Assembly (NCBI GenBank): GCA_034620365.1
Contig: JAQGEQ010000289.1
Location: 248,001-312,000, forward strand
DNA length: 64,000 nucleotides
Direction of reading: 5' to 3'
Origin: Pegea sp. RAD2-039
Taxonomy: Eukaryota > Chordata > Thaliacea > Salpida > Salpidae
Under the pieces are notes generated by a model that saw only the letters and a list, made by a program, of their open reading frames with translations, made no database searches and was not told the DNA's origin. Each line of letters opens with the position of its first letter. Within the stretch, counting starts at the first letter, position 1. The position numbers and the translations under genes were made by a program. Below, one piece after another: positions 1 through 63,442 of the stretch.

Positions 1-3000
1 TATACTATTAAGAAACACAAATCACAATCTGATAAAACTTCAAGGAGTTAGTTGAAGTCTGAAATTTGATTTTATCTGAAAAAGTAATAATTTCAAGTAC
101 TGACTTGAATTAAATGACAAAAATTTCTAGCAAAACCAACATTTTTAAAATTTGTTTGAATTGAATCGGTTTTAAAAATAAATGAATTAACAATTTTAGA
201 GCATATTTGAAAAGAGTAGTTAGAGTATTTTAGGTCTGATGATAAATTTTGTGAAAGATTATCTAACAACAAATAATATGATTAAAAATTGAAGCTTTTG
301 TTTGCAGTGATTTTCTCCTTACGACCGCTTCACCTATGACGTCATCTTTTCTATTTCATTTCCAAAGTAAAAAGATTTCTACAAAACCTTTCAGTGTTTC
401 AAATGAAATTATTTCAAATTATTTGCTAGAATCGTTTAGCTGTTTATTATGAAGCATCATTCACAAATATACATTTCTCATTAAACAGAAATTTTATGAA
501 TGAAACTTTCCTGATTAAAATCTAATTTCAGTTTCACCATTTTCCATTTATATTTTTCAAACAAAAATAAAAACACCAAAAACTACTCATAAAATCTTTT
601 TTAAAATGACATTTAATAAAATAGAAATAATAATCGTCAAAATAATCCTTAAAACTTTTTCTTCTGATGCTTAACTTCTCTGTAGTTTTGAATCAAAAAG
701 ATTTTCATTTTTTTCCTTTTTGTTTTTGTCAGCCAGAATTTAAAGTTTTTCCTTATACAGATAGAAGGTAAGTGTCTGCTGCAAAGGACGGCCTCTGGGC
801 TGCTGGCTGTTTTGCACGCTTCAGTAAACACTGCAACAAAAACTGGAATGATTTTTTTGAGAGTTAGACTGATATATTTCACCAGCTGCTACTAAAATGA
901 ATAATATTTTATCTTTTTTAATAGTTAGTTATCAGATAATTAATGTTTAGTTTAATAATCTTTTATCATTTTTTGTTCAAAAAAAGTTAAAACTTTTATT
1001 AATTTTGTTGTTGTCGTTGCAACTTAAATATTTTGATATATCATTTTTGTTACGTGTAAATAAAATATTGAAACATTTTGATTTATTAATTTGTTGTAGG
1101 TTATCCACAGCAAATATCATATCTTTGTAAAAACTAATAGAATAAAATTTAATTTAATTTTCATTAAATATTTTAAAAATTATTTAATCTATAAAAAAAT
1201 GTAGACTTTGAAAAATTATTATATTTTTTCGATTATCTTTGTGGGCCAAAGCTTTAAGTGGAAAAGAAGGTGAAACCAAACTCCCTCTTCGCTTTGTAGT
1301 CAGATCCAACTGAGCAACTCTATAGATTCCCACTCTATAGATTTGTTTTTTAGTTACACGGCTCAGTGACCTAATGAAGTGACATTGAGGTCAACCAGTT
1401 GTAGGTTGTTTTTCTGGGTGAACTCACATAACCTTTTTTCTCTCTAATCAATCAGAAGACAGGATAAGTATTTGATCACCGTTCTGCCAAATTGCTAAAA
1501 GTTTTTGATTTTTTCGGATAAAATAATTTGATCAAAACATATTTCAACTAAAACCAATTCTAACGTGGCTGAAGACTTTTCTATATTTTGTAATCAGTTG
1601 AAATTTATTAATAACCTGTCTTAAATACTCAGGTTTTTCTGCAAGCCATAAAAACATTATTCACAGATTATTAAACTATCTTTTCTCGCATAACAGACTT
1701 TTTTTATAATCAACTAAAGAAAATTGATCTGCGTCCAAAAGATTTTTGTACACTTCTTGAAAAACTATTTATTTAGTTTATTATATTTGTAGGAAAATGA
1801 TAGATATTAGATTTTTAAACTCTTATTCAATTATTATCATTATTCAAATTCGACCATTTTTGTACAAAACAGGCCACAATTATTATTCAATTATTTCAAT
1901 TTGTAACAATTTGGTAAATACCTTCATCACTTTTGATAATCTAAAAGCTTACCTCTCAAACAGCTTCAAAATAACCATAAAAAGAAATTCAAAATTTCCT
2001 TTTTTACAGATCAACAAAATTTATGTCGAGTAAATTAATAAAAGTTAAAAAACCCAAAACAGTTTATTATATAAATTTAAATCAGAGATTTCATCTTTCA
2101 GGGAATTAGTAATTCACATATTTATGTTTTTTAAATTACTATCACAACAATAATAATCAAACTTTTATTTTTAAATTCTTTTTTGTCAGATATATAATCT
2201 AATAAAAGATTTATTTTTAAATCGAAAGTTAGTTTTTAAACAAATTTAATTTACTATAAATTTTAATTTATTTCACTTTTGATCTTTTAAGAAAACTTGA
2301 GTTACGATTTTGCTCCTAGTAATCGCTGAAGACAATTTTGTTGCAATGAAAAGACTTGAGTTTAACTTTAAGTAAAAAGAATATCAAATTAACTTTTGAA
2401 ACTAAAATTGTTTAATTTGCTGCTTTTTCTAGATTTTTGATTTGTAAGTTTAGCAACTAAAATAAATTTAAACTCAATTAATTTTCAAAACTTTGAGAAT
2501 AATACATTTTACATCTTTCATCTCTAACAAAACTCAATAAAATTGTCAAAAATTTAGTTGATAATTGTCAGTAAATGTTGAAATGTTTGTATTTATGTCG
2601 AAGTATTTTGTAAAAGTTTTTATTATAAAAAGAGTATAGTAATAGTTTTAGGAATATTTTTACACAAAAAAGAATAATAAGCAAACAACAACAAACTGAT
2701 TATTAAGTTAATTGTTTCTATCTTTGTACATTTTCTTTCATTAGTATCATCTGTAAAATAAAATCAGAAAAAATAAACAGTATCTCAAACATGATCTGAA
2801 TTAATGATAAATTCCACAGTCTTGTTACAAATCTGATAATGGTTCTGCAAAATATATTTAAAAAGATTATAAAATAGAATATCAGAAAAGTTTACATCAA
2901 TAAAACAAATAACTAAAAGTCATCAAAAGTTATTGTGATTTATTGATTAGAAAAAACAAAAATATATAAATGTAAGTCATTAATTTATCTATAGATATTA

Positions 3001-3029
3001 TAGTTGGAAATATTTGGTATTCAACTAAC
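1..3029. other. AT-rich non-coding stretch
   Basis: No reading frame here has recognisable homology, codon bias or a convincing splice structure. A single TGACGTCA palindrome lies at 337-344. The segment around 1350-1400 resembles a stretch near 10325-10365 (both contain an 'acacggc...gtgacatt/gtgatatt...ggtca' pattern), which suggests an old dispersed repeat, but the match is weak. Confidence 0.5.
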
Positions 3030-12200: not shown

Positions 12201-15200
12201 TAGTTTAGTAAACGATCTTTTAAAACTAAACTGTTTTTTAATCTGACTTTCAAATACTTTTCAAATTTTAACTTACTTGAACAAATTCAATTTGATAATT
12301 ATCAAGATTTTCAGATAACTTGAACTTTACTCTACAAAATCCTTCTTCAGTTGAATCAATTCCAGTGACGTCAACAATATTGGGAAATCCCCCTTTAGTT
12401 TGAAATATTTCTTCAAGTTGAATTGGTTTTGACCAATATTTTGGTGTATATTGCACCTAAAAATTAGATTTAAAAGTGAAAAAGTTGATAAATCTTCACT
12501 TATACAACTTCTTACTTTAACTGTGTAGTTAGTTTGAGGTTCCAACTCCTCTATTTTGACTATCGCTTTTTTAGATTGAAGATTTGAAACAAGTTGATTT
12601 TGATTATCATAAACAGTTAAATTAAATTGTGTTAATGAAAATGTAAAGTCGTTCAATTGAAGTAATATTTGATTTTCTTTACAAATCTTTCTATTTACTT
12701 GAGATTGTTCAAGTGAAGCAGCTATTGAATAAATAATTAATTAATTTATCAACAAAAATATTTTATTAGTAAAAAAAACTCACCAATAAAACAACATTGA
12801 AACTCAGAAGAAAAATCTTTGAGTAAAATATAAATGATAAAAATTTGAGAGGAATTTTTCAACTAACTTACTTTGAAAACTTCCTTTTTTCAATTCACAA
12901 ACTTTCTTCGAATTTTCATTATTTTTTTCGATTAAAACTTTGAAACTTTTTGGTTTTAGCTTTTCTGCATCTGAAAGAAAAATTGAAATTAAATCTTTTT
13001 CAAGAGATTTAGATAAACAACAGATCAGTTGTTTGGATTTTTACAATTTTTGTGGAAATTTGACAAACCTGAATTAAGATAAAATGTTTTATTTTTTTCA
13101 ACAGATCCAATTCTATTTCTTACTTTGGCAACACAGATAATCGCTAATTTTGGTGGAAAAGAAATTGGATTAATAATTGAGATCAAACTTGTTGCTGTCA
13201 TCAGCTTCTCATCATTTGTATTTCGGATGATGAAGACTTTATCATTCTTTTCTAACAACTGATTGTTAATCTTCCAAGATATTGATGGAAGAGGACGACC
13301 TTTTGCAGAACATGAAATATTCTTCGATTCCAAAACTTTAACTTCTTCAAGAGTTTTGGTTTCGATTTTAGATAGAAAAGAAATAACTAAAAAAATATCA
13401 ACAAAATTGATTCCACTTCAAGATAGTTTATAGAAATTAATAAAATTTTATCAATAAAACAAATAATTTTGAAGAAGATTTACTCCAAGAACTTTTGATG
13501 AAGATTATGTTGGATGTTTGATTTATTTTAATCTTTTAAATTGATAATGAGCAGTTTGACTTTTACAAATGAACGAACAAATTTGAAGTGATAATTTAGA
13601 TTTATAGTTTTGATAATGAAATTTTGAATTTCTTTAAATATTAAGTTTATAAATTTATTTTATATCTAAAAAAGTAAATTTGCAATTTGAAAAGAAAAAG
13701 TTTTTCAAATTTCTGAATTTACTTCAAATATAAGATTCAGATTTTATAAAATCCTCGTTTTTCAAGAAGTAAAAACTTTAATCAAACCTTTTACATTTGC
13801 AGATAAATTTTTGATGATCTCTAAGCTCCCTGATGTCATTTGTTGATAGAAGATGCAATTATATCTTCTTTCTTCTTCAATGGAAGGATTCACAAAATGA
13901 AGAATTGAAACTTTGTAGTTTGTTTTATTTTTATATTGTTGATAAATTTGTTGTTCTTTGTCAGTTGTTATAGTTTTCCCATTTCTGTCAAAAATACAGA
14001 AAATTAAAATGATATTTGATACTTTTTAAATATTTGGATAAAAATTTGAAATAGAAAAACCTTTTCCATTCTACTCTATAGGAATTGTTTCCGTAAATCC
14101 TACAAATGATGCTTTTGGATTTATCTGTAATATTTATGGATGATCTTGAAATAACTCCACTTGCAGATTCTGATAAAGATTTGAAACATTAAAATTTGAA
14201 AATGAAACTTTTTAAGTAAACTGTTTATTTCGAAATTATATTTTAATTAACTTTCTTATTTAGGCTAACTTACTATTTTCACAAATAAACTTGTTTTTCT
14301 TTAAGCATTTTTCATCGAACCAATATCCAAAAAACTTTGAGCTTAACGCGATATTAACACATTTTTCATTTGATTCATTTGGTTCACCCTTGTAGTTAGG
14401 GTTTATATTTTCTTCTTTTATCCAATCAGTCTTCGTGTTCCAATGTTTATAGGAAACCTTTTCTCCATCAGACCATTTCCAGATGCTATTATTATCATTT
14501 TCTTGATGTAATCCGATCCAAAATCCAGATAACCATTCTTTCTTATTATTAGAAAGGTGGTTAAATTTATACTCAACAATTTGTTGATTGATGAAAGTTT
14601 GAGTTTCGTTAGTTTTAACATGAGCGAGGAATCCATCAAATTTGTTGCAAGTTTTGTTTGCTTCACTAATGTTACAACTTTTATTATAAAAAGTGTAAAA
14701 ATTATTTCCGAATGAAGCAACTTTGATGGTTGTTGGTTTCTCAGTTGTAACTAAAATATAATTTATTTTGTTAAAAGTTTTGAAAACTGTTGAATTTCTT
14801 GATAATTACGATTAAAATGATCAGTTAGTACTAATGTAAAGAACAAACTAATGTTTTGATGAGTTACTTTTGTCAATATTGCTAAAAGTAGAAATAGTAA
14901 AAAGTTTTTAGAATTTATATCCAATGATTCAAATGTAATGATCAAATAAATACATTGACCAGGTTTATATAGTTTAGCCATATAATGTAAGTTAAAATCG
15001 GTTTAATTAAGTTTAGATGTATACTTCAACTTTGTATTTATTAATAAAACATCAGACATTTGAAGATTTCGAAATTAAAAGATTTTCTGATATTTTGTAG
15101 TTTATAAATTTACAGACAAAAAAGAAAATTATTCTGAGAAATAGTTTTTACATCGAATTTTTATAAAACAAATAATTAAAATACGGAAACTTGCAGTTGT

Positions 15201-22336: not shown

Positions 22337-25300
22337 ATGGAAAACATTGATACAAGCTTCCCTCATATTTATATGACCCCTAAAGTAGAAATTGGTGCAA
22401 TCAATTATCTTCAAAAGTATCCTTCTTGTGATGGAAGAGGAATCAAGATAGCAATCCTTGATACAGGAGTTGATCCTCTTGCTCCAGGTTTACAGGTTTG
22501 TGTTAAAAGTTCCTAATCTTAGAAATATTCTAGTTTGTCAACTTTAGTGGTTGTTGTTTATTTGCAAATAACTTTTTACTATTGTTGTTATTCATTAAAT
22601 TTGTATTTTTTGATTTCTAACTTTTACCTCTCCTACTTTTTTACTTTATTAAGATGACTTTTCATTATTTTTGCAATTATTTTATTCTGTGTTTGCTATA
22701 AGAGCTGCAGAATTCGTCATCTTCAGCCACGTGTCGAATAAATTAAGTTTCTATCATAGCTAGTTTACAAAATGAAGTTAATGTTTGTAAATTATTTATT
22801 ACAAATGGTGGGTGTCACTACTAATAACCAATTTACAATTTAAAATGATAATGAAGACTATTTTTATCATTATTAGGTTACAACAACAGGTGAACCAAAA
22901 ATCTTGGACATTATTGACACTACTGGTAGTGGTGATGTTGATACAAAAACAATCTCACAAGTTAATAGTGATGGTGAATTACAGGGGTTGACTGGCCGTA
23001 TACTCAAAGTTGGTATCAAATGATTGATGAGTTTGTTGAGTGATTCAAATAGTTTATAAATGTTTAAATCTTCAACATTGAGATAAAGAATAATGAAACT
23101 TAAAAGAAAATTTAGAAGTTGTTAAGATTTTGAAAATGTTTTTTGTGTTTGTGAAAATTATTTTGAAAGGTAATACATGAGTTCAAATATAACTTTTACT
23201 AAAATTATATTTATTTATTTCTCAGATAATTTATTAAAGATAATTTAATTATCACCAATAGTTTGATTTTATCTTCTTAAAATATCAGTTTTGTTTAAGA
23301 AACTCTGCAGTGAACTTTTTTCAAGGTTCCGGCAGATTGGAACAATCCAACTGGACTCTATCATCTTGGCAGAAAAAGTCTTTATCAACTATATCCAAAA
23401 GCTCTCAAAGATCGTTTGCAGGTCGACTTGATGTCAAATGTTTTTCTTAAGTTCCTTTAAAAAAGATTTCTTATCAATCATATTTCTTAACTATAGAAGG
23501 AGAAAAGAGAGAAGAAATGGAACACCATTCATAAAAAAACTATCACAGATTGTATGTCAGCTATTTCTGATTTGAATAAGTCAGATTTGAATCAGGTTTG
23601 CTGCTTCATCTTAGATTTAGTTTTTATCAAATAGAATTTAATATTATCAGATTTGTTGTAATTTCATATTTTCTTATTTAGGAAGAAAAACTAATAAAGG
23701 AAGATAAGGAAGCTCAATTGGAAGTTTTAGATAAGTTAGATAAAAGTTGGTGTGATTGTGGCCCTGTTGTTGATTGTGTTGTATTTCATGATGGTGAAAA
23801 TTATCAGTAAGAAAATTTATACTTAAGATGCCTAGAATCTCTAAAATTCTGATTTCCATAGAGCTTGTGTTGATACTAGTCTTGTAGGCGATCTTGAGTC
23901 TTGTAAGTTGATGCAAAGCTATAAAGAGAAGTTACAAGTCAGCACTTTTAGTGGTGATGACCTCCTGAACTTCTCTGTCAATATTTATGATGATGGGAAT
24001 GTTTTAAGCATCGTGACAAATGGAGGTTTGTGATTGGCTGTTTGAAAACATGCAAATATCAAAGTGTTACTAGGATCACATGGGACACATGTGGCTGCTA
24101 TCACTGCTGCTCACTTCCCTGATAATCCCAAGTTAAATGGGGTCGCTCCAGGAGCTCAGATCATTGCTATAAAGATTGGAGATAGTCGCTTGTCTACTAT
24201 GGAGACTGGGAGTGCTTTAGCTCGAGCTGTAAGTAGAATTTGCTGCTGAAACACTTCAATCTCACCAAGTCTTTAATAGATGTCTGAAGTGGTGAAACAT
24301 GGATGTCATCTAGCTAATCTTAGCTACGGAGAAGCTAGTCATTGGCCAAACCAAGGGTAACTTTTATTAACAACAATTTGGTCGATTTGTAAATTGGCTT
24401 CAAATTCACTTTTTTGTTTCAGAAAAGTTTTGAAAGAAATTGAAGAAGCCGTCACAAAAAATAACTTGATATTTGTCTCAAGTGCCGGTAACAGCGGCCC
24501 TTGCCTAACCACTCTTGGTGCCCCAGGAGGGACCAGTCCACATGTTATTGGTTTGTTGTTGTCATTTTGTTAAAACCATTTTCTGATTTGAACTTTAAGG
24601 TGTTGGGGCCTGGGTATCACCTGAGATGATGACCGCTGAGTACTCTTTAATGGACAAAATACCTTCAAACCAGTACACATGGTCTTCAAGAGGTCCATGG
24701 TCAGTTCCACATGAATGAACATCGACATATTCTCAACTTTCACAATTGCAGTGTGGATGGTTCTATAGGTGTAACAATCTCAGCACCAGGTGGCGCTATC
24801 ACATCTGTTCCTAATTGGACGCTACACGGTAGTCAATTGATGAATGGAACATCAATGGCGTCACCAAACGCATGCGGAGGACTCGCTCTTGTTCTTTCAG
24901 GTATCTAAGCACGTGACTAATGACGTGTTTGACCTGTTTGTTTGTTAGGGTTGAAATTTCATGAGCTGACTTGGACTCCATCTGCTGTTAAGAAGGCGCT
25001 CGTCACCACTGCAGCTTTTCAAAAGAATATTGAAACATTTGCGCAAGGAGCTGGTCTTCTACAGGTACTAGTCACGTGATGGAAGCTTCTCAAGTTTAAT
25101 TGGTCGGTTTTAGGTGGTGGAGTGTTTGGAATTCTTGAAAAAATATTCGAATCGAATTGATTCAAAGATTCATTTCAAGATCACAACAAATAATAAGACA
25201 CATGGTGAGTATCAGACTGAATTGAGAAGTATTTCCTTATTTGGTATTTCAGGGATCTATTTCCGTTCGTTACACGAATGTGAGAAACCGAAGTCAGTAG

Positions 25301-40634: not shown

Positions 40635-42353
40635 ATGTCACGGTCAAATAAGTTACTAATCAATGACGTCACTGACTGCGTCGATGAAATGCTTGATGAT
40701 GTCATCCGTATCAACCCAGGACTAGTCCGGTTGCCACGACATCGTGTCATACTTCGTGATGACGTCACACCGGCGCGCGACAAGGTTAGCGTGATAAGTG
40801 GTGGTGGGAGTGGTCACGAACCATTCGCCAGTGGTTTTGTGGGTCAGGGCATGCTAACTGCTGCTGTTTGTGGCTCTGTGTTTGCTGCGCCACCTAGCGA
40901 TGATATCATCGCTGCAATCGAAGCAGTGACGTCATCAACAGCGGGCTGTGTGCTAGTAGTAGCTAATTACACAGGTGATCGTCTCAACTTTGGTATCGCG
41001 GCTGAAACAGCGCGAAATCGCGGTTTGAACGTCGAAACAGTGATAGTAGGCGACGATTGTGCTGGTAGTGGACGGCGTGGCTTAATTGGTGTTGTCATGG
41101 CGATGAAGGTCGCAGGCGCAATGGCTGAAGAAGGCCAATCAGTGAACGAGATTTGTCGCGTTGTCAACAATCTTTCCATGACAACGATCGGTTTGAGTTT
41201 GGGCGGATGTTCGATTCCCGGAAGTGACGTCACATCCTTTAATCTGCCACCAGATGAAATGGAGCTGGGTCTCGGCGTTCATGGTGAAGCAGGAGTGAAG
41301 CGCGTGAAAGTAGCTTCTGCTGACGTCACAGCTGACTTCATGATCGACTACATGACGTCACATTCGCGCGTACAACAGTGGCGAGAGGTCAGTGTAACTG
41401 TTAACAATTTGGGAGGATTATCTCTCATCGAGTTACATCTTGTCGCGCGTCGCTTCATGCAGCGATTACGTCATCACTTCAACATAATCGTACGCCGATG
41501 CTATTTTGGCCACTTGATGACGTCACTTGATATGAGCGGTCTGAACATCAACGTCACTCAAGTTGATGACGTCATCATCAAATGGTTGGATGCAGGCACA
41601 AATGCAGCCAGCTGGCCTCGAACTTGTCGTTCACGTGACAATAGTAACGATCTCAACGAGCGTTTCTACGCTGATGACGTCATCGATCACGTGTTGCCAC
41701 TGCTAGTGGCAAGTAAACGATCGATGACGTCATATCATGACGTCATGAGATGTTTGAAAAAAGTTTGTGAAAAGTTGAAGAAGGAGGAAGATAATTTGAA
41801 TCATTTGGACTTGATTAGTGGCGATGGTGATTGTGGGAGCACCTTAAAAAGAGGCGCTATAAGCCTTCTACACACTTGCACAAGCACCTCGCCCATTCCT
41901 CTATCGCGTATATTCATTGATATCGCGCGATGCGTCGGATCGTCGATGGGAGGGTCTTCAGGTGCTCTCTACAATCTCTTCTTCACTGCTGCTGCTTCGA
42001 AAGTCGATGATGACGTCACAGTTAACGCGGTGATGATGTCACGATGTCTTTCTGCTGGTATCGAAGCTATATCTAAATATGGAGGTTCTAAGCCAGGCGA
42101 CCGCACGATGTTAGATGCTTTAGCGCCTGCTAGTGACGTCATGAAGACGATTGTACATGAGCCAGTTGCTGAGATTTGTAGGCAGATGGCTGATGCGGCT
42201 GCTAAGGGAGCGCACGACACAATAGAGATGGCTGCTAAGGCGGGACGCGCGAGCTATGTATCTCCTCATCTAGTCAACAAACCTGACCCAGGGGCGGTGG
42301 CTGTTTCTATCATCTTCGCCGCTATTCGCGACTTCTTTGTTACAAATCAATAA
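40635..42353 (+). CDS. TKFC: Triokinase / dihydroxyacetone kinase (TKFC)
   Basis: A single uninterrupted frame of 572 residues; human TKFC has 575. It phosphorylates dihydroxyacetone and D-glyceraldehyde with ATP, and in animals can also cleave FAD to cyclic FMN. The N-terminal DhaK domain has SGGGSGHEP and the substrate-binding histidine in GVHGEAG (residue 216). The C-terminal DhaL domain has the metal/ATP motifs DGDCGSTL (about residue 397), SMGGSSGALY and GDRTMLDAL. It is the only intronless confident gene here and is clearly GC-richer than its surroundings. Thirteen TGACGTCA palindromes lie inside the coding sequence and produce repeated DDV, SDV and MTS tripeptides. No residue essential for catalysis seems lost. 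Confidence 0.95.
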   Translation: MSRSNKLLINDVTDCVDEMLDDVIRINPGLVRLPRHRVILRDDVTPARDKVSVISGGGSGHEPFASGFVGQGMLTAAVCGSVFAAPPSDDIIAAIEAVTSSTAGCVLVVANYTGDRLNFGIAAETARNRGLNVETVIVGDDCAGSGRRGLIGVVMAMKVAGAMAEEGQSVNEICRVVNNLSMTTIGLSLGGCSIPGSDVTSFNLPPDEMELGLGVHGEAGVKRVKVASADVTADFMIDYMTSHSRVQQWREVSVTVNNLGGLSLIELHLVARRFMQRLRHHFNIIVRRCYFGHLMTSLDMSGLNINVTQVDDVIIKWLDAGTNAASWPRTCRSRDNSNDLNERFYADDVIDHVLPLLVASKRSMTSYHDVMRCLKKVCEKLKKEEDNLNHLDLISGDGDCGSTLKRGAISLLHTCTSTSPIPLSRIFIDIARCVGSSMGGSSGALYNLFFTAAASKVDDDVTVNAVMMSRCLSAGIEAISKYGGSKPGDRTMLDALAPASDVMKTIVHEPVAEICRQMADAAAKGAHDTIEMAAKAGRASYVSPHLVNKPDPGAVAVSIIFAAIRDFFVTNQ

Positions 42354-43567: not shown

Positions 43568-43760
43568 TGACAACATTTCTAAGAGAAGCAAAACTCCGAA
43601 TTTAAAGCCGGAGTTGGAGCCTCGTAGGCAGTTTGTCGTTGTACTCAGTGTCTTTCTGGAAGCTCCTATGACGTCATCTGGGTGTAGCTGCATCAGTCTT
43701 TCTGTTCTGCTGCATTTCCTTGTTGGCTTGGAAAGTGGCAACAACTAGATCTGCATGATT
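43568..43760 (+). repeat. Interspersed repeat family R1, copy 3
   Basis: Close match to copies at 15664-15850 and (inverted) 37185-37375. Here the variable site reads TGACGTCA (43669-43676), where the others have TGACATCA and TGACTTCA. Confidence 0.75.
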
Positions 43761-44479: not shown

Positions 44480-45508
44480 TCACAATTGAACTTGTGTCCT
44501 TGAAGATGAAGTTGAATCCTTTTTCAATAATCTTTTAATCCATATCTTATCAGAAGGAGCAAAAAACAACCTAAAAAAAGAATTAAAAACCGAAGAAAGA
44601 AGATGAAGACTTACATGTAGATAACTGAGAACAAGATCGCCCCTGAGAAGTCTCCCACCCACCAAACCCACTGCCTCGTCCAATCATTCATGACCAGGGC
44701 TGGTCCAAAAGCACGAGAAGCATTCATACAGCAACCACCAATCCATTTACTTGCAATAACCAATCAAAAACCAGTATTCAACCACAAACCATCTTACCCT
44801 CCAAGAATGCCTTGAAAGACGGTGAAACCAATCGCAACTGGACCAATAGGCTGGTCATAGTCCTTTTGAACCACGGTCACTACCGCAAATAGGACCATAA
44901 TACCTGTGACAATTGCTTCATGAAAGATGACAGCCGCGATATTTGCTCCTTCTTCCACTATGATCGGTCCTGGAGCATCTTCCTTGATCACCTACAACAT
45001 CACGTCATCACTCATCGATGACATCATCAGCAGGCGATTACGTAAGCAAAGTAAGCGCCTAGAGTAGAGCCAAGACACTGAGCAATGATGTAGGGTATGA
45101 GTCGGATTGGATGTAAGACTCCACAGATGACGAATCCCACCGAAATTGCCGGGTTGAAGTTGATGATGCTGAAACGCAGTATGACGTCATCATTGTCATA
45201 TTAATCACGACTCACCAAATCTTCCAGAAAAGCACGATGATCATGAAAGTAGCAACTCCAGCTTGAAGAGCCGGAAGCAGCGCTGTCAACAAGTATTCGC
45301 CTCCAACATCAGCTGATGACGTCACGCTTTTGAAAATCATCAATTAGATCATTGAATGAAAATGTCGCTCGAATTACTTGAGGGTCTCGACGATTTTCGC
45401 GGGAGTCGCGATTATTGATCCCCAATAAGAATGAATGATCAGGGCAAAGAATTCGGCCAACAGCGGTTGTAAAAGCCCGAAGTATCGCTTCTCGCTTGAT
45501 AACGTCAT
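44480..45508 (-). CDS. Aquaporin (MIP family), AQP8-like
   Basis: Six exons (45508-45378, 45326-45216, 45168-45042, 44991-44798, 44749-44615, 44570-44480) join in frame to 262 residues, a normal aquaporin length. The first half-helix has an intact box, INFNPAIS. The second, in the context GGCCMNASRAFGPAL, has NAS in place of NPA but keeps the pore arginine and FGPA. That context resembles AQP8-type channels (MNPARAFGPA). Aquaporins conduct water, and AQP8 types also ammonia or peroxide; selectivity here cannot be predicted. The hydrophobic segments fit six membrane helices. The C terminus is short, basic and Ser-rich (STSSSRTQVQL). Several short introns contain or adjoin TGACGTCA. Confidence 0.88.
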
Positions 45509-46101
45509 CTTGTAAGATCGGTTCAAATGATTAAGTTGAAGCAGCTGTAATATGATTCGATGACGTCATTTCCATGACAGCAGAAGCGAGTTGAGTTCAT
45601 TCAAAAAAGCAATAAAATAAAAGTTTATCAAAGCGTTTGTTGATCAAATAAAATCATGAATAAATCAAATGTTAGTTTGCTGAAAGACTACAATTAAAAT
45701 GAACTAAATTTCATGACTGACTCCACAAAATACTAAAATTTGATACCAAATTACTTTCTTTACTGATTTACAAACCTTCTTATAATAAGCTTTTGCAGTT
45801 TTAAAAATGATTAATACTTTGTTAGTTTTGTAAAAATAAATTTTAGTATCATCCTAACAAATCTTTCTTTTAACTCACCTCTAAAGTGATGATAACTACT
45901 TTAAAAGCTTTTAAATAATCTTAATCTCGCTGAAAACTGCTATTAAAAAATGTACAAACTTCACAAGCTCTAGTGGTTGAAAAATTTCAACAATTTCTGT
46001 TTAGAAATTTTTAATATTTGATTTCAAAGATAAAATTGAAAATTTGTAAGAATCAATTCAATTAAAACCAGGCGCGTTGGTTCCTTAACATTTTATTGGT
46101 T
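45509..46101. other. Spacer between aquaporin and claudin-like genes
   Basis: It holds the aquaporin 5' flank, with TGACGTCA at 45561-45568, about 55 bp upstream of the ATG on the minus strand. The rest is AT-rich without a gene. Confidence 0.4.
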
Positions 46102-46914: not shown

Positions 46915-47638
46915 TTTGTTGACAACTTTCAAATCTGTTTAAATTTCAAACAAATAAAGTGAATTAAAAAAAAATACCAAAAAACTTTTCACAAGAAACT
47001 GCTTGAAAATAGACTGGAAATAAGAAGGATCTCAAATGAATGAGTCTTCTCAAATCTGGACATTTGAAAGTTACGGATGAATGAACAGCGTTTTTTGTAA
47101 GAATTTTCCAATGGATACGTCTCATTGAACATTCTCATTGAGTCTTGGAACTTTCCAGAATCTTTTTCGTTCTTATTTCTCGGATCCAATTTCAGGTTTC
47201 AGGTGAAGATGTTAGTAGTGACATCTTCGAACTATTGAATCACGTGAGGCGCGATTAGCGATGACGTCACCCTTAAATCCACAATATTTTAAGTCTTGAC
47301 GGATAAGGAAATTTGTAACTGAAACTTCACTCCAAACTTTCCCGAAAAAATTAGTAAATTGATAAGAGCTGGAAGATTTGAAGCGTTTTATGACTCGCAT
47401 GACGCTTTTGGATAAAATAATCATAATCGACGATTGTTGATTAAGAATCATTCTTAAAAGCAATTTTGGAAAATTTTTTTGTTATTTTTAAAATTTTAAA
47501 AAAAATATATTATAAGAGATAATAGAATTGATATTTTGAATTTCTGCAAAAATGTTTTGAGCTATTTTAATAGGTGTTAGGCTCTAGTTTAAAATCTACT
47601 AATTAAATAAAAAAATTTGTTTCAGATCATACTTACAA
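46915..47638. other. Upstream flank of the claudin-like gene
   Basis: Minus-strand frames at 46989-47189 and 47212-47463 show no recognisable domain, and I do not call a gene. TGACGTCA lies at 47262-47269 and TCACGTGA at 47240-47247, so this GC-richer block may be the promoter region. Confidence 0.35.
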
Positions 47639-51805: not shown

Positions 51806-53013
51806 GACCTTTAAACTGAAAATGGCGACCATTTTAAAGTTCAAGGTAAATAAATTTCAAAATTGAAAAATATTGAACATAAAAGATTTAACTGTAATAA
51901 ATATTTTAATACTTGATTTATCGAGTAAAAGCTGAAATATTCAAGAAGCTTTTGCGAACCGGTAAATAATGTTATCTTTTCTGTTGTATTTGCCTTTAGT
52001 AACCAAATAACAAATATATAGATATAAATAACAAATACATAATAGTTTAGCTATTTTTACTCAGTAAACTATTAAACTGCTTTTTTTAATTACAAACATT
52101 TAAAGTTACAACCAAACAAAACGTGATTATTTTAGAAGATATAGATATACAGACAAGCAAATCTAGTTGTAAATACGAGAACATTATGTCTTATTACTTA
52201 CAGTAATCTGTTTTATTTAAAGAATGTGTTTATAGAAAACACGAAAAAGTAATGTTCTTGTATTGTTTGCTTAAAGTTTAAATCATAGCCTGATTATTAA
52301 AAAAGAGACTAATGTAAAATTAATTTACGACTGTTTTTAATAACAAAGTTTGTTTACAAGCGTAATATACTTTTAATTTAAGCAGCGTGTTCAGCAATGA
52401 GAAATCCATGTACTACAGGAGAAATCAGTTGAAAAACAACTTATCTCCAATATTGATCAATTCTATTAAATTTTTACGATGGAGCTCTCCTATGCTTAAA
52501 GTTTTTGTTTACTTTTATTAATTAAGCCGTAGCCAATAAAAAAACTAACTAAATTATAGTCCTGTAGAGTTTTTCTATCTTAATAGATTGAAATATAAAA
52601 AGATTGAGTTTTTAGAAATCAAACTTATTCAATTTGTTTAAGAACTTGAGCTGTTTCATAAGCTTGTTTTATTAATATTCTTTCAAGTAATTTAACTCTA
52701 ATAGATTGAAAATTCTCAATGTAAAGTTTTTTTAATTTAGTGGTTTGAATGATTGTTATAACACTATAACATGTTTCACTTTATTAAACTTAAAAGTTTA
52801 TTAAACCAATGAAACTTAATCTTCACATGATGAAACATCTCTTTCTTCTCATGCTGATATTTTATTGGATAAAAGCAAGCGTTAATGACGTCACATTGTT
52901 GTAATAACAAATCGGTTGTTCGATTAAGCTAAATTTAGTTGTCCAGAAGTTTCTGCTAATATTGATCACCCTCAAATATAACCGCTCAGTTGGCTTATTT
53001 TTACAAAACAATA
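51806..53013. other. Upstream region of the HSF-like gene
   Basis: AT-rich with no gene. TGACGTCA at 52886-52893 lies about 120 bp before the HSF-like start codon and could be a promoter element. Confidence 0.4.
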
Positions 53014-56184: not shown

Positions 56185-59100
56185 TCAAGAATTTATAAGA
56201 ATGGAAGTTTCAATCTTTCTGTTAGTGGCTTCTTCACCGGTTGAACTCGGTAACTTAAGCTCTGGTACAATTACATACCTGTCAACCAAGAAATAGGTTA
56301 ATCTGTATTTAATCCAAATATTTATATCATTAAATGGGTTTACACTAAACAATTATGATATAAAAATAAAGTTTAAAACTTACAAGAAATCTGCTTTAAG
56401 TAGTTTTACATGTGCCGCAGGGTTAAGCATGATATAACCTGATCTATCATCTTTGCTTTCATCGTTGTAAGACCATTTGTTTTGGTTCGGGAGATCTAGC
56501 TCTCGCATCCTGGTCTATAATTCAATAATAGGTGAAGATCGGATATATCAACAATTAACAGTTCTTTAAAATTGAAGTTGAATGTAATCAGTGAAATACT
56601 TTTATCATTTCGTTGAGCATTTCTTTGTCAGTTTTCCTATTATGAGCTTGATGAAGTTGTCTTAAATTCTCTCTTCTTCTACTTGGAGCGCGTCTGGAAT
56701 CAACCAGCGAAATATTTGCATATAATTTGCATATAAAAGGGATCAATTACTTGTATCTTCTGCTACTTTGCTTCCTAAGTGAAATATTATCTCCACGGCA
56801 ATCATCATCAGAAAAAACTGGAAAACTTGGAGCTGAAAAGGAAGATGTAACAATCTCTAATATAGATCATCTTCTCTACCTCGTTTGAAAATGGAAATAG
56901 ACGACGCGCGCCGCCTTTTTATATCACGAACAGGTTCTTTTTCAACTCTACGGTAAATACCAAGAGCTATATAGCCATATTTGGAACTAAGCTCATTAAA
57001 AACTTGATGGTAGGTCTTTCCCTCATCTTCATCCATAATGTTGTACTAACAAAAATGTTAGAAGTGACTCAAGATGCATGTGTCTCACCTTATCCAAGTG
57101 ACCCGATCCGGAAGTATATTGAAGGCCAATCATGATCCTTAGAAGAGTAGGAAGATAATCTTTGATGAAAGATTGATAAAGAAGAGTATCTAACATCCCG
57201 CAACTAAAGACTCGTCCAGATGCAAAGGCGGGGCGGAAGAGATACGGCAAGCTGCAGTTCTTTTCAGTCTTTCGCTCCTATCACGACACAATGACGTCAT
57301 AGAACACGTGACGAGAAGTCCTAACCTCTCTAAGTTGATATAAGTGATCTTGAGGAGCGTTGAAATGCATAAACCTCATATTTGAAGCATAAGTAAGTTC
57401 CAAACATACTGGGGTTGAAGGAAACAACTCGAACATTGTTTGCGTGGCAACCAGTTGTCTGTAGAAGTCGAAGTCGAGAAGCAGCTTGATGACGTCACTT
57501 GTAATCACCTTGAATCAGCCATATGTTCCTCTTCAGCATGAACCGATGTGTCCCGATCTACTATGATTACGTGACACGCTGTTGTTACACCCGCGCGAAG
57601 GAAAGAGTTTAACCTAAGAGCACATCGCATTTTTACCTTTTCAATTAACAAGTTTGAACTTTATGACGTCACGCAGTAGTCGCGGTTTATACGTCACCGG
57701 AACTAAAAGCTCATGCAAGTCGCGTGGTTAAAAAAACACAAAAATTAATAATTAATATTTTGGTTTGTTCAAACATCTTCTAACTGTCAATGATTTTGCT
57801 GCTAAAAAAAGAAAAAAACTTTCCATGCCTCAAAATTGATCTCAAAATCATATTAGTGCAAAAAACAAAATTCGTAGAAAATAAAAAATGATTATTTAGT
57901 TCCGCTCGAGTGAACTCACGTGGTACTCAAAGTCTTCCTGTGAAAGTAGTTTTCAGTTTCAACCAAACATTTCTAGCCAATCAAAAACTACAAGTAACAG
58001 CGCGTCGCAAACTCACATCTAGTGACGTCACACACACATGGTTACTGACCTGCACGTATCAGCTGATCCAACACACGCACAAGGGTTCGCGCTAATCCCA
58101 AAATCAAGCACTTAATGACGTCACATTACGCACTGACGAACGTCGAAACGAAAAGTAAAATGATGACGTCACAACTAACCCGCTGATAGCACCAAGCATG
58201 TAGTAGACCATCGGGAAGCAGCTGATGGAATTGAGAAATATTGATTCAGGAGTGTGCTCCATGAGAAAGATGATTGGATGAAGACTGTCACGTGATCGGT
58301 GATGAGCTCTCAAAGGTAGAAGAATATTGAAAAGACTTTGAGATGAGAACTCAACACAAATGATGATTGGTGGTTTCGGCCAATCATAATCGAACGCGCT
58401 TAATGACGAGCAGTGTTCACACGCCTGTGACGTCAACGTGATGATGTAGTAGATAGGATGACGTCATACACTCACGCGGTCGAGACGCATGCAACAAAGT
58501 CGCGCCCTTTGTCGTAATAAGTGGCACATAACTGGCGAACTGTGGCCCACATAGGGTAGGACAGGTGGAAAGCCGATATCGGTACTGATGACGTCATAAA
58601 ATCAGCGTGGTCATCGTCGATGATGACGTCACGAACCTGCCCATCGTGGTTGAGGATAATCCATCATCTACAGAGTCATCTATTCCACCTCTGACGTCAT
58701 CACTCGTGACTTCTTTTAACTCGCGACTTTTTAAACTTGTTTCATCTGTAAAGTAGTGACGTCATCAACGCGATAAGCGAGAAGTAGTGACACAAACCAG
58801 TCTTCTTGTAAGTGTGGAGCAGATTTGATTGGATGCTTGGTGTCTTAGCAACGATTTTCGCGTTTTCTTCTTCAGTTAAACAGATGTAGAAAAGTGAATC
58901 TGTTCTTTCGATCATAACTTCATTCCCAGGATTTAATTTAATCTCTCCATTCCTCTTCAACGCGAATAAAGTCGCCCCATATCTACCATCATCAACCTGT
59001 ACATCTGTCCCACACTTTCATACACTGTCTTACTTGACGTGGGCCGATACTGCGGCCCTACTGAACCGACTTCCGACCAGTTCACCAAAGAAACGGCTTT

Positions 59101-61443
59101 CACCCACCTCTGCACAATAAATCTCATTTCCTGCGCTCTTTCCAAACTCTCGTTTCCATGACGTCTGCAAGTTACGGCCCTCTCTGCCCAAACGAGGTCA
59201 ATAAATTGCTAATTGGTCCACAACTGACCTGCCCTTGGACGTATGGGCCAGAAGTGTGATGAGAGTTGAAAGTCCTGGCATGTAACTATTCATGGCTAGC
59301 AACGCAAATTTCATCTCTTCGTCACAAATCACCTAGCAACGATCAGTAGTTAAAGACAAGTAGTTGGTGACCAGTGGACCAGAAACCTGGTCAGCAAATC
59401 TAATATGAAGTCGACTTTCAGGTCGAATAATTTGGACATAAAGTGGACATTCAGGAGCGAAATCTTTGACCGCCATCGCGCGAAGGATCGTCTTCTCATC
59501 AGCTGCTCGTTTATCTACTTCCTGTCGTGACGTCAGAATGAAACAAGCTTCCGCCACATCCATCCTAGCAACGATGACGTCATTTGGGATGTGACGTCAC
59601 TATGCGACTGACTTGACGCGAAGTAGATCGGTTTCGCGAAGAACAGATCCTTGAATGAAGATGACACGCTCCGACCAGATGGGGATTTGTAGGAAGCTTT
59701 TGAGGGAGGGGTCGAGTTCACATGGAGCGGCAAGGACCACGTAAAACCGTTGGAGGATCGAATGAGAGTAAAATTCATTCAAAAAGTCCTGGATCACATC
59801 AGTCCGCAAATCTTTAAACAATGGGTTGTTATGACAACACACCCATGATGACGTCACTCACCACTCGCACAAACAACCACGTGTTTTTCAAGACGCGCGC
59901 GACGCCGACTGTACTCGCCGCCCTGCCGCTGTCTTTCCGCCCAAATGAAGGACATCTCTTCGAGCTGCGTAACGTCACATTTACGTCATCAAGCAATCGA
60001 TCGTGATGACGTCACTTGCTTGCATTGGGATGATTCCTAACGCGATGAGGATGATGACGATGACGAGAACGCGCGAAGGCCAAATAGTTGGCGTGAAATC
60101 GCCGTAACCAACAGTACTGAAGGTGACTACGACGAACCAGAAGGAATCAAACAAATCAATTCGCTGTTTTCCCGCTCTTTCGAGGTGCTCCACGCCACAC
60201 ACACTACACAACACCTTTGTTGATGACGTCATAAACACATGGGAGACGTCACCAGGTGGTGATGAGACAAACGAGGGTTGCTACTAGCAGTAGGACTTGG
60301 TTGAACATCGCAGTTTGTTGACGTTTAGCAGCTCGGTGAAGATCGTTCTGCAGAAGAAACGATGACGTCATCGACAAACGATTATTTTGTATGACTCACA
60401 ACAATACTTTCCAATCCAATCTTAGCTGACCAGATGTTGAGAAAGATTGGGATATAAAGACATCTTCCAGGCGGCCAGAAGACCTGTTTGAACTTGGGTT
60501 GAAAAGAAGTGAGAAAATGGCGGTTTGAAAGCTTGCCCCGATTAAAAGTGGCGCTGAAGAAATAGATAGAAGAAACCATTTGATAGTTAGAAATTGTTGC
60601 AGTAAATTTCCTTTATAATTGACATAAACTGAAAAAGATTCAGAAGTGATGTTGAGAAAAGCGAGTGATGCCTGAAAAAGATAAAGATGAAGTCAACAGA
60701 TCGATTCCAACCTAATTACCTGTATCACATAAATCCAATTTTTTCTATCGACCCATAGCAGCGGTTGCCATGCAAATGTATATTGATTTGCCCATGTTTG
60801 GTTGTGTAGCAACGGGTAGTGTATGCACGAGTTATCACAGCTGTTGAAAAAGCTGATTATCGACAGAAAAAGTCGGGATTAAACCGACCAATCAGAAAAG
60901 AGGTTATTGTAACTGTTCCAAGTTCGTACTAAGTAGAAAAATACTGAAAGAAAGTGGACAAGGAACTTAAAGAGACGGAATCGAAGACCTAAGATGAAAA
61001 GTAATGTGATGTTGATGTTGTCATAGCAACCAACACCTCACTCACTAACAACTTGGTTGACGACCAAATAGTATCTAAGGCGTTCAGCGAAACTTCTTTC
61101 ACTGACAAAATATCTCATTTCAAACCTGTGATCAAAAAAAAACATTTGAAAAAAAATCAACGAAAAAAAAGATGAAAAAAAAGATGTAAACAAAAGATGT
61201 AAACAAGCCACGTGACTACCTCTTACACGGAGCTTCATCAAACATTGTTTTTGAAGTTTTTGTGATTTTTGTCAACTCCACCTTACCACTCTTTTTCTTC
61301 TCTCGTTTTTTCCTCTCTCGTTTCAAATCCATGTCAATCATCTTATCATTTGTCACGTGGCTTGTTATTTCGTTCAATACAAACAACAACAATGGTGTCG
61401 CTTTCGACAACGATCGAAAAATGCAAAAGTCTTTGTGGACCAA
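56185..61443 (-). CDS. Sodium-activated potassium channel, Slo2/KCNT family
   Basis: A multi-exon gene closely following vertebrate KCNT1/KCNT2. The N terminus has [18 protein letters not shown]1 lies near 60,988-60,900, and the S1-S2 loop and S2-S3 follow to 60,400. [20 protein letters not shown] precedes the pore. The pore has FSTVGYGD, with the K+ filter at 60115-60098. RCK1 includes DFLNEFYSH, then NEVDK-type [19 protein letters not shown] and [15 protein letters not shown]2 includes [30 protein letters not shown] and the [20 protein letters not shown] segment. The C terminus ends ETSILINS at 56185. In this family the RCK domains gate the pore in response to cytosolic Na+ and Cl-. The start is uncertain: exon 1 could begin at 61443 or 61341 ([10 protein letters not shown]). 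Introns are tiny (38-53 nt) and packed with TGACGTCA; one appears to be a GC-AG intron. Confidence 0.92.
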
Positions 61444-63442
61444 GCTTAGAGTATTTCGAAAAGTGACTCACGACAATTTCTTACTTTTAATAATTCGCTT
61501 TCGTTCTTAGCTTCTTATTTAATAAATTTCATTAAAAACAATTATAGCATATTTTTATTTCAGGTGTACCAACAAAAAACATCCGCTAGGTGGCAATGTT
61601 CAGTTATTTGATATCTCACCTGCTTCCCAGTACTTCAGCTGAATGCTTATTATTATTTTCATTCAGCAAAGACTCCTCTGCCATCTTCCCAAGCCAGGGA
61701 AATACCCTTAACTGATTTTTCTTTATTTATTTTTGGAAGTTATTCACACAACCCTAGCTGAAGAGAAAATTGATTTAAAAACAAAACTTTTGACTTTATT
61801 TAATAGCCTCAGGAAACGTTCTTCGTGACTAATATCACTTCTAACCTTTCTATCAACAAAAGTTCTAGAAATCGATCATCAGCAATAAACGCGACTTTAA
61901 AAAGTAAATATCGATCGAAAAGTATTAAGTTCTGACTTCTCTAACAAGCAGCACAAGAAATAAACAACATCAACCTAAACCAAGGTATTGAAGATAGAGG
62001 AAATGACGTCATCGTGTTTGATTATACTTTATATTTTTCTTTGATAAAATAGAATTGATAGCGTCATCTAATAATATCAGTTTACCGATGGAATGTCAAG
62101 GAACAATTTCTGGACAGAAAGTAAATGGTGTTTCTAAGCAAAAATTACTGAAGCGTTTCGACATTCTTATTGGTTGTTGGTCATGTGACTAATAGCTGTT
62201 TACTTTTGTCAAACAGGTCGATATTAGTAGCAAATAAAATCTATTTTGTCATGTACTTTTTCAAAAGAGTTTAAAAAAGATAATTGCAAAATAATCAGGG
62301 GCTTTTTATGTAAAAACCCTTTTTTTCACAACGAAGTTTTAAACAACAAAATTAGTAAGAAAGGTTAGTGATGAATGAGTAAAAATGTTTTATGAACTTA
62401 TAAAAGAATCAATAAAGTATCAATTGTATATCCAATGACATTTTTCATAAACTTTCTCTTTCATCCAAATAATTTGATTATTTAGTTGAACTTTTGCTGC
62501 TAAACAATCTAATTTCAAAAATAAATATTTTCTATCAAATTAATCAGAAAACTTTGACGTAAAAATGCAAATAATTTTTGAACCTTATCTTCATTTTAAC
62601 AAAATTCCCTCAAACTTTTACGAGTTTTTTCATCCGAAACACTTTCTTTCAAATGAATTATCTTCTTCATTTTTTTAAATAAATCATTTTAGATTTGTTA
62701 ACTTTGAAAATCTATCTAAATTAAAACGCAAAAATCGCCTGAAGCAACATTAAAAAATGGTTTATTAAAAAATCAGGTAGTCAAATTTTACAGTTTTAAT
62801 CCATAAAATTATTTATTTCTCTAAGAAATTACTATTTTCCATGACAACCATAATCTAACACGTCAAACAGTTCCGCGTGACTAATTCTAAACCTTAAAAA
62901 AACTGTAATGTTTATTACTAATAAGTTATATCACGTTTAAATCGAATACTCGTCGGTGATTGGCTAATAAAAGACATAACAATAAGTCCATCATCTTCAT
63001 AAATAAACCTAAAAATAAAATCTAACTTTCATTTCGTTCTTAACAATCTACGTTAACTTCTGCTGATGACAGAGAAGAGACGTTTGCAATTAACTTTTGA
63101 CTAATGTCTGTAAATAGAATTAAACATGAGATGAACATAAACCCAAACGCTCACCCGAATAACCGTCCAGTAATTTGATTCTTTAAAAGTCCTTGAATTC
63201 TAACAATTACAAAAAACTTGACAACAATTTTCTGCTCCATTTCATTTTAATAAAAAAATTTAAATAATATTCACTTTAGAAATAAAGCTGTTAATCTATA
63301 AAACGTTCAGTTATGGAGTTTTGTGAACGTTTTTTTAGCTAATTCAATTATTTATAAATGTTTTTATTTATTTAAACATATTTTTGTGTCTCAGACTTTG
63401 AGCTTCCAAAGCAAGAAATAAAATCAGAAGAATATTCTTATT
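61444..63442. other. Upstream region of KCNT and intergenic stretch
   Basis: No gene is supported. TGACGTCA lies at 62004-62011. A short frame from ATG 62088 (about 33 codons) has no support. Confidence 0.4.

Follow-up and report, generated by a model that had tools for sequence, protein, structure and literature searches.

The question raised by this locus is why a single eight-letter palindrome, TGACGTCA, is repeated so often in the window, by which we mean the whole stretch of 64,000 bases that was analyzed. An earlier note had arrived at about 45 copies by hand, with about 0.5 expected at about 70% AT. The window contains exactly 45 copies at an AT content of 70.0%, and 100 dinucleotide-preserving shuffles of the window gave a mean of 0.53 TGACGTCA with a maximum of 3. 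The two clusters that had been singled out, of 15 and 19 sites, were recovered with the same counts (Table 1). The note had also named a genome-wide count near expectation as the outcome that would overturn it; instead, the genome of 105,744,746 bases holds 27,792 copies of TGACGTCA as compared to 969 of the reversed word ACTGCAGT, a control that lacks the CpG. Projecting the shuffle rate of the window onto the genome gives ∼880 copies, an excess of ∼29- to 32-fold. With 703 sites per Mb, the window exceeds the genome-wide average of 263 per Mb ∼2.7-fold. In 20 sampled 3-kb pieces (60 kb), the positions of which were picked by hand on contigs known to carry site pairs, 11 sites were found and were confined to four pieces; the distribution is patchy. 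A more extreme example is contig C24, where 147 sites occur in one 20-kb stretch that consists mostly of one long gene, with a peak of 82 within 10 kb. A second CpG-centered transcription factor palindrome, the E-box TCACGTGA, is in excess as well (4,614 versus 237). The genome count and the 20-piece sample rule out an accident local to the window, and the genome count, the shuffles, and the dense-DNA counts given below rule out chance or base composition as the source.

Table 1. Positions of TGACGTCA sites and associated genes in the window.
Feature	Position	Strand	Details
Dense cluster, 15 sites	40574..42141	.	2 upstream of the ATG, 13 in coding frame
DAK upstream sites	40574, 40607		61 and 28 bp ahead of the ATG
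DAK coding sites (13)	40664, 40760, 40927, 41225, 41321, 41353, 41518, 41567, 41675, 41725, 41738, 42011, 42134		
Dihydroxyacetone kinase (DAK) gene	40635..42353	+	Single exon, 572 aa, Dak1 and Dak2 domains
Dense cluster, 19 sites	57292..60370	.	
First ten sites of this cluster	57292, 57490, 57664, 58023, 58116, 58164, 58428, 58459, 58589, 58624		
Last nine sites of this cluster	58692, 58757, 59528, 59575, 59592, 59849, 60007, 60224, 60363		
Slo2/KCNT-type potassium channel gene	56380..61684	-	Two-part home-made model, 21 introns
Probable aquaporin-type gene	44611..45568	-	Sites 45182, 45317, 45561
Two sites, 34214 and 34233	34214..34240	.	Start of predicted HECT-like gene (34232-35857, +)
Site in 184-bp dispersed repeat copy	43669..43676	.	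Copy at 43554-43737; subfamily carries the site
Isolated site	337..344	.	
Isolated site	12366..12373	.	In open frame (12330-12740, -)
Isolated site	47262..47269	.	
Isolated site	52886..52893	.	80 bp upstream of HSF-domain open frame
Isolated site	62004..62011	.	Upstream of channel gene
Tripeptidyl-peptidase II (TPP2) gene (contrast)	23911..28359	+	Zero TGACGTCA

The sites are associated with genes. The earlier note had placed some of them between genes; this holds for few, as 41 of the 45 lie in or within ∼100 bp of predicted genes, the exceptions being 337, 43669, 47262, and 62004. The DAK product matches Pfam Dak1 (E 6e-98) and Dak2 (E 1e-42), with the PDB relatives 1un9 and 1un8, and its 13 coding sites translate as x-Asp-Val-x (nine) or x-Thr-Ser (four). 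A second copy of this gene, sought for a comparison of site gain and loss, was not found. The gene models were made with a home-made predictor of spliced genes, a simple one that had been trained on a few frames. In its model of the channel gene, eight sites fall in coding codons and nine in introns. The model is supported by the match of its predicted 835-aa part to KCNT1 (5u70_A, E 2e-166), and Slo-like_RCK is also matched (E 5e-12). The aquaporin-type label is our own reading of a gene from which a single exon was searched against Pfam, with no match, and the HECT label is likewise ours. An Rfam scan of the window returned tRNAs only. The claim that these are not ordinary promoter CREs is borne out, since 13 of the 15 sites in the DAK cluster are in the coding frame and neither DAK nor the C24 gene shows a concentration of sites upstream of the transcription start.

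The octamer overrides both codon and amino acid choice. The C24 gene was split into pieces by the predictor and its codon counts are therefore approximate; of its 147 sites, 95 are coding and 40 intronic in the predicted model, and the 95 compare with 10 when the protein is held fixed and 0.5 when codons are shuffled. The coding sites occur in each of the two codon phases that are permitted, 46 in one and 49 in the other. Where Asp-Val occurs in a context suited to the octamer, it is written GAC-GTC in 62 of 66 cases. Across six predicted genes, Met-Thr-Ser occurs 44 times (1.25 expected) and Asp-Val-Ile 39 times (2.0 expected). TGACGTCA is packed so densely into the exons and introns of certain genes that their proteins have changed. 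The same excess is present in introns, which are GT-AG and near 50 nt in length: 55 short introns contain 39 sites as compared to 0.054 expected. The earlier note was right to see a highly iterated palindrome that coding and intronic DNA share.

The form of the motif points to a protein that would read it. In 37.8 kb of dense DNA, pooled from pieces selected for sites (C24, paired loci, and C1 loci) together with others, the exact word occurs 233 times as compared to 0.84 expected (278-fold), and all one-mismatch forms together 60 times as compared to 16.7 (3.6-fold). The top neighbor is TGACGTAA (21 versus 1.3 expected), the CpG-decay form TGATGTCA occurs 14 times (2.8 expected), and the extended half-site GATGACGT, with full sites excluded, 29 times (1.4 expected). 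The fuller motif, common to exons and introns, extends to 14 bases and is nearly symmetric (TGRTGACGTCAYCA). When the 147 sites of the C24 gene are read on its sense strand, 95% have R at -1 and 91% have Y at +1, with G at -2 in a fraction of 0.53 and C at +2 in 0.45, and the pattern is similar whether the sites are intronic (34) or coding (85). CREB/ATF/Jun bZIP proteins prefer R/Y flanks and take TGACGTAA as their second-best word, and the flanks and top neighbor found here agree with these preferences as generally understood. Cognate factors are encoded as well. The bZIP_1 profile was found at 12 places in the genome among the matches listed, which include a Jun-like bZIP (locus L064, E 1e-15) and a protein with a CREB-like basic region and zipper (locus L065); the subfamily labels are our own reading of these sequences. 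Sites are spaced by 20 to 22 bp in 14 of 56 and 12 of 52 intervals in two sets (26 of 108 pooled, 11.6 expected), in bins picked after inspection of the data. A 10.5-bp periodicity was not seen, and a 14-bp preference is largely due to loci selected for that spacing.

Dense DNA is also linked to a CpG-undepleted state. Among 80 pieces with their sites masked, the 11 with the highest site density have a CpG o/e of 1.12 and the 36 that are site-free have 0.68, and the corresponding GpC values are 0.90 and 1.03. The comparison includes pieces picked for their sites, and GC is nearly as good a correlate, the rank correlations with site density over the 80 pieces being 0.57 for CpG o/e and 0.53 for GC. 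The proposal that sites cluster where GC is higher is correct in that density tracks GC, but GC as the sole cause is rejected. The TPP2 gene (identified by a Peptidase_S8 match and TPPII_Ig-like-1, E 4e-27; 19 predicted introns, CpG o/e 0.69) has no site at a coding GC of 0.41, while several 500-bp pieces of C24 with a GC of only 0.27 to 0.32 carry three to seven sites; other such pieces carry none or one. The CpG link may be a consequence of the sites rather than their cause.

The reading that we tentatively put first is that TGACGTCA, in its full form TGRTGACGTCAYCA, would be bound by dimers of at least one bZIP of the CREB/ATF/Jun type and was multiplied under a weak but persistent binding-dependent force. 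Among the roles offered by the earlier note, the binding site of an abundant bZIP appears to fit best; a chromatin mark, for which the link to CpG-undepleted DNA speaks, and a repair or recombination bias are the other candidates. The R/Y flanks, the rank of TGACGTAA, the half-site excess, and the CREB/Jun-like genes are all in keeping with a bZIP. Sites would have been added one by one across part of the genome, and the force may be selection that favors gene bodies densely occupied by bZIPs. Such occupancy would keep dense genes open and unmethylated in the germline and thus preserve the central CpG, and genes outside this state would lose their sites through CpG decay. If the enrichments are at mutation-selection balance, the scaled strength in dense DNA would be ln(278) to ln(726), or ∼5.6 to 6.6 per site. 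The genome-wide value would be ∼3.4, tiny for each site and yet sufficient to reshape exons. The site-dense genes (DAK, the Slo2 channel, a long coiled-coil-like gene, and a septin piece) form no obvious regulatory class, which counts against this reading, as does the weaker flank symmetry of the channel gene, in which G at -2 reaches just 0.21 of 19 sites. The coiled-coil-like gene is that of C24; Pfam searches with seven pieces of it, some overlapping, gave no family above the cut-off, and its resemblance to spectrin/nesprin was judged by eye. A further dense gene piece is topoisomerase II-like by eye, with no Pfam match.

Selection for occupancy should also meet diminishing returns, and the lack of visible saturation at 82 sites in 10 kb suits a drive that acts per site better. 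We regard such a molecular drive as possible but rather unlikely. Alleles that carry a bZIP site would be favored in germline repair or recombination through site-favoring gene conversion, with no benefit to the organism, and the bound TGACGTCA would spread within the unmethylated compartment, in exons as well as introns, despite opposing selection on the proteins. The force does act on exon and intron, in both codon phases, and at the expense of proteins. However, ordinary break hotspots convert themselves away, and the drive would need an unusual bias toward the site. A tie between CRE-like words, bZIPs, and meiotic recombination is known from the fission yeast M26 motif ATGACGT, which is bound by Atf1-Pcr1, although a full CRE in ade6 is reported as unbound and inactive (both in passages of PMC9775316 that treat M26). 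For the uptake sequences of Neisseria and Haemophilus, molecular drive has been proposed and a graded drive of protein-bound words argued, with enrichment falling as mismatches accumulate, in the relevant section of PMC1939737.

Improbable, in our estimation, is an origin of the cyanobacterial type, in which the palindrome is made by a DNA methyltransferase that is sequence-specific and works in connection with mismatch repair, a model stated in PMC4390886. The word is palindromic, exact, and spread over coding DNA, and C5 methylase matches occur at 11 places among the matches listed, of which seven fall within open frames 832 to 873 codons long. The one copy examined, however, is DNMT1-like: it combines a C5-methylase domain with a pair of BAH stretches, and an enzyme built in this way should target CpG and not an octamer. 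The neighbor spectrum and R/Y flanks resemble bZIP specificity.

That the sites were brought in by very short insertions of a few codons in exons, and not by point substitution, is very unlikely. In DAK, seven of 13 sites lie at most one residue from a residue missing in the Citrobacter-type 1un9 (1.75 expected, P 0.0003), and one of the four channel sites in aligned regions lies inside a 10-residue insertion relative to KCNT1. The enzyme 1un9 is distant, and sites and indels should both gather in variable loops, which accounts for this association without causation. In addition, the alignment is gap-free at six of 13 DAK sites and at three of the four channel sites (e.g., ILTSR versus ILSSR), and the flanks past the octamer are variable, whereas an inserted module would be expected to be constant.

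Little probability remains for two further proposals. In the first, bound or unmethylated CpGs mutate less and sites decay elsewhere, with neither selection nor drive. The CpG o/e link and the deamination product TGATGATGTCATCA (420 places versus 0 reversed, a weak control that lacks TGATGATG-like simple repeats) agree with this, but reduced loss at one CpG cannot yield a 278- to 726-fold excess over eight positions plus flanks, nor does it explain the excess of Met-Thr-Ser and Asp-Val-Ile; it is rejected as the sole cause. The second, a splicing signal or an RNA stem from site pairs, draws on the concentration of sites in predicted genes and on the 10 of 55 short introns with at least two sites. 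Against it, 27 of the 55 have none, RNA pairing needs no uniform word, and the neighbor spectrum fits bZIP DNA specificity.

Mobile or tandem repeats are scarcely credible and are refuted as the main source, since homologous flanks were found for one pair (identical, on C1) among 303 sites, three 22-mers that each recur identically on a second contig, among the matches listed, share just 22 to 32 bp with their partners, and the site in the 184-bp dispersed repeat (carried by 18 of 41 aligned copies among the matches listed) is followed by G at +1 in 15 of these 18 as compared to 4% of 305 local sites. The C1 pair, the repeat copy at 43669, and a site pair repeated five times at 1,740-bp spacing on contig C38 are real exceptions. 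With one homologous flank pair among 303, the sites arose separately.

TGACGTCA is similar to cyanobacterial HIP1 (GCGATCGC) as a short palindrome that lies, genome-wide, far above a compositional model, with one-mismatch forms much less enriched, and as a word of both coding and non-coding DNA; HIP1, too, is present in non-coding DNA. We know of no agreed explanation for highly iterated palindromes. TGACGTCA differs from HIP1 in that it is patchy and is a bZIP-type site with bZIP-like flanks and neighbors in what, from its gene set, we infer to be an animal-like nuclear genome (105.7 Mb, GT-AG introns, a KCNT-type channel, and CREB/Jun-like genes) rather than a prokaryotic one. The nematode SL1 was absent even with two mismatches allowed, COX1 was not found in a family search, and neither was the arthropod cuticle family, in a search that had no positive control. 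TGACGTCA is like the Neisseria DUS and Haemophilus USS in that a word predicted to be recognized by a protein is multiplied in coding DNA, with a much stronger excess of the exact form than of its mismatched variants. The bacterial words work by way of transformation, and we know of no DNA uptake route of this kind in animals; TGACGTCA also differs in being palindromic. With the promoter CRE it shares the identical octamer, the R/Y flank preference, and encoded cognate factors, but it occurs tens of times per gene, in exons and introns. In vertebrates, CpG-island promoters contain CRE and the E-box TCACGTGA, the same two CpG-centered palindromes enriched here; TGACGTCA lies instead in gene bodies, including exons, at a much higher density. 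To our knowledge, M26 has not accumulated as a motif. It is like TGACGTCA as a CRE-like word within coding sequence to which a bZIP dimer binds (PMC9775316), as is predicted for TGACGTCA. A section of PMC1939737 describes one-mismatch forms of Synechocystis HIP1 as far less enriched and gives weaker eukaryotic cases, such as AAATATTT at ∼5-fold on Drosophila 3R. A search of the open-license literature found no comparable eukaryotic palindrome.

In this eukaryote the palindrome itself reveals its probable reader as a bZIP dimer, which turns selection versus drive into a testable question. A regulatory-type DNA word that overrides protein sequence bears on inferences of protein selection and codon bias in this lineage, and the link to CpG-undepleted genes bears on the mutual influence of transcription factor sites and mosaic DNA methylation. 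If drive were the true reading, TGACGTCA would be a eukaryotic counterpart to the uptake sequences of bacteria and to their highly iterated palindromes.

The eight-letter palindrome TGACGTCA, a bZIP site of the CREB/ATF/Jun type, occurs exactly 45 times in the window, as compared to a mean of 0.53 and a maximum of 3 in dinucleotide-preserving shuffles. The earlier note had counted about 45 copies, with clusters at 40574-42141 (15 sites) and 57292-60370 (19 sites), and both clusters are present at those counts. It had also allowed for a genome-wide count near expectation; across 105,744,746 bases (387 contigs, with the window at C19:248001-312000), 27,792 copies were found as compared to 969 for the reversed word, which served as control. 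Close pairs, with starts 8 to 38 bp apart, number 5,280 genome-wide and 0 for the control, and a word count made without prior choice returned TGACGTCA as the top octamer in the window, the C1 loci, contig C24, and the paired loci. A stretch of contig C24 that is mostly filled by a long coiled-coil-like gene (the C24 gene) carries 147 copies in 20 kb and no reversed word. The distribution across the genome is patchy; in twenty 3-kb samples, taken from contigs already known for TGACGTCA pairs, 11 copies were confined to four samples. On contig C38, a TGACGTCA pair is repeated five times at a spacing of exactly 1,740 bp, probably as a tandem array.

Read along the sense strand, the 147 sites of the C24 gene are preceded by A/G in 95% and followed by C/T in 91%, and the next flank positions outward favor G/C and then T/A, each in about half. 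The flanks are similar for intronic (34) and coding (85) sites. At the 19 sites of the Slo2/KCNT-type potassium channel gene, the G on the left side at -2 is less pronounced (0.21). Because of these preferences on either side, the fuller motif is a near-symmetric 14-mer, TGRTGACGTCAYCA. A second, weaker palindrome, the CpG-centered TCACGTGA, was counted 4,614 times genome-wide (control, 237), and 88% of its 32 local copies have R before and Y after.

Within genes, TGACGTCA overrides coding. The C24 gene model, a simple prediction, has ∼3,700 codons and many introns near 50 nt, and its coding sites are split between the two phases free of in-frame TGA (46 and 49). Each gene was compared with its own synonymous codons redealt with the protein fixed and with its codons shuffled. 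The C24 gene has 95 coding sites (means of 10.3 and 0.5, respectively), the dihydroxyacetone kinase gene (DAK) 13 (1.25 and 0.08), the channel gene 8 (0.29 and 0.06), and the tripeptidyl-peptidase II gene (TPP2) 0 (0.00 and 0.03). The excess over both controls indicates that synonymous and amino acid choices are both shifted. Codon contexts were counted in six predicted genes (C24, DAK, channel, aquaporin-like, TPP2, and HECT-like). Where Asp-Val can form TGACGTCA, GAC-GTC is used in 62 of 66 cases (5.4 expected), as compared to 0 of 18 where it cannot; for Thr-Ser, ACG-TCA is used in 56 of 61 able contexts, which follow NTG (2.3 expected), and in 8 of 51 unable ones (1.9 expected). The tripeptides Met-Thr-Ser (44 versus 1.25 expected) and Asp-Val-Ile (39 versus 2.0) are likewise in excess. 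The presence in coding and intronic DNA alike that had been claimed was borne out: in 55 short introns from the C24 gene and the channel gene, 39 copies were counted (0.054 expected), 28 introns having at least one and 10 at least two. Inside the C24 gene, what looks like an intron (L035, ∼4700-5530) also holds an array of AGAAGATGAAGATCAG-type words with long minus-strand open frames encoding KEDQKKIKRRS repeats; similar words occur in the C1 loci.

Among 80 pieces of the genome, CpG o/e with sites masked is 1.12 in the 11 with more than three sites per kb and 0.68 in the 36 that are site-free, and GpC o/e is 0.90 and 1.03, respectively. Rank correlations with site density are 0.57 for CpG o/e, 0.53 for GC, and -0.18 for GpC. 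Such CpG depletion is usually taken as a trace of germline methylation. The deaminated full motif TGATGATGTCATCA occurs 420 times versus 0 for its reversed word, which is a weak control. C5 methylase domains were matched at 11 places, seven within open frames of 832 to 873 codons, and the one frame examined (L068) has two BAH stretches and the C5-methylase domain in a DNMT1-like arrangement. Two frames on C57 lie ∼4 kb apart in opposite orientation, and further long frames lie on C32 (three) and C52; our guess is that they are retro- or transposon-borne copies.

Features of the window and of other contigs, with CpG o/e where determined
Feature	Location	CpG o/e	Remark
TPP2	window	0.69	no site
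HECT-like gene		0.94	
DAK	window	1.16	
Channel gene	window	1.05	
C24 gene	C24:84001-104000 (most of)	1.13	
C5 methylase frames (L067, L068)	C57:819728-821071, C57:825001-826344, C249:1740707-1742050		∼860 codons
TGACGTCA pair, five-fold	C38:687004-693985		
Dispersed ∼184-bp repeat	window 43554-43737, 37213-37366, 15665-15802		
Inverted 835-bp duplication	window 47907-48740, 50971-51805		99.8% identical, amid tRNA-Gly(TCC) genes
tRNA-Cys genes	window 5347-5976		three, near-identical, on tandem units of ∼165-196 bp
tRNA-Gly(TCC) genes	window, elsewhere than tRNA-Cys		four
24-bp minisatellite	window 55190-55717		∼21 copies, several frames open, just downstream of HSF-domain gene

TGACGTCA behaves in the manner of HIP1, the cyanobacterial highly iterated palindrome (PMC4390886), and of bacterial uptake sequences (PMC1939737). 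The bacterial resemblance noted earlier holds for behavior and fails for membership: the host is eukaryotic, which places TGACGTCA in neither class. PMC1939737 gives 5,648 copies of the Synechocystis HIP1 decamer (5 expected) and 1,830 one-mismatch forms (160 expected), argues for graded molecular drive on uptake sequences, and includes the palindrome AAATATTT, ∼5-fold enriched on a Drosophila arm, among over-represented eukaryotic words. In fission yeast, a CRE-like word within coding DNA acts in recombination, and a full CRE in that gene is reported as inactive (PMC9775316). In the open-licence literature searched, no nuclear genome of a eukaryote was described as carrying a palindrome iterated to a comparable degree.

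The TGACGTCA excess could be held at a balance among mutation, drift, and a directional force. Assuming balance, the fold enrichments would give scaled strengths of ∼5.6 to 6.6 per site in dense DNA (ln 278, ln 726) and ∼3.4 genome-wide (ln of ∼30). A site-favoring drive that spreads the word, the closest rival to selection for occupancy, is favored by the absence of any visible saturation and by the price paid in protein sequence; however, it would need a bias opposite to that of ordinary hotspots, and we consider it unlikely.

Some sites could have come by insertion rather than substitution. In an alignment of DAK with the Citrobacter-type kinase 1un9, 7 of 13 sites are no more than one position away from a residue missing in 1un9 (1.75 expected at random, P 0.0003), whereas 6 of 13 lie within gap-free alignment. 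Similarly, one of the four channel sites in regions aligned with KCNT1 is within a 10-residue insertion, whereas three are gap-free (e.g., ILTSR versus ILSSR). Variable loops would collect sites and indels alike, and thus the gap association is no proof of insertion. Judged from their flanks, the sites are separate in origin: only one pair among 303 has homologous flanks, and identical 22-mers on different contigs comprise three pairs sharing only 22 to 32 bp. The dispersed repeat around the site at window 43669 carries TGACGTCA in 18 of 41 aligned copies, 15 of them with an atypical G after the word. A first look gave 820 genome candidates for this ∼184-bp repeat, the closest copies among 40 scored being on C19, C77, and C140.

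Creation of sites followed by decay would be expected to leave far more near-misses than were seen: in 37.8 kb of dense DNA, 233 exact copies (0.84 expected) stand beside 60 single-mismatch forms (16.7 expected). Prominent among the latter are TGACGTAA (21 versus 1.3 expected), the CpG-deamination product TGATGTCA (14 versus 2.8), and TGAAGTCA (12 versus 3.6). The extended half-site GATGACGT occurs 29 times outside full sites (1.4 expected), and thus enrichment extends beyond the full octamer. Sparse DNA has two exact copies (0.29 expected) and 21 single-mismatch forms (14.4 expected).

TGACGTAA is a usual second-best site for CREB/ATF-type bZIPs. The bZIP_1 family was matched at 12 places in the genome, and the two best matches are a Jun-like protein (E 1e-15) and one with a CREB-like basic region and zipper, labels that reflect our reading of the basic regions. 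Non-coding stretches of L036 (∼2680, 3510, 5860, and 6120) hold GTTGCCATGRCAAC-like words, one of which directly adjoins TGACGTCA; we take these words to resemble RFX X-boxes and the adjoining arrangement that of X1-X2 boxes. From the sequence data at hand, our tentative reading, which we put at somewhat below even, is that bZIP binding underlies the force on TGACGTCA, with selection for gene-body occupancy as its likeliest form.
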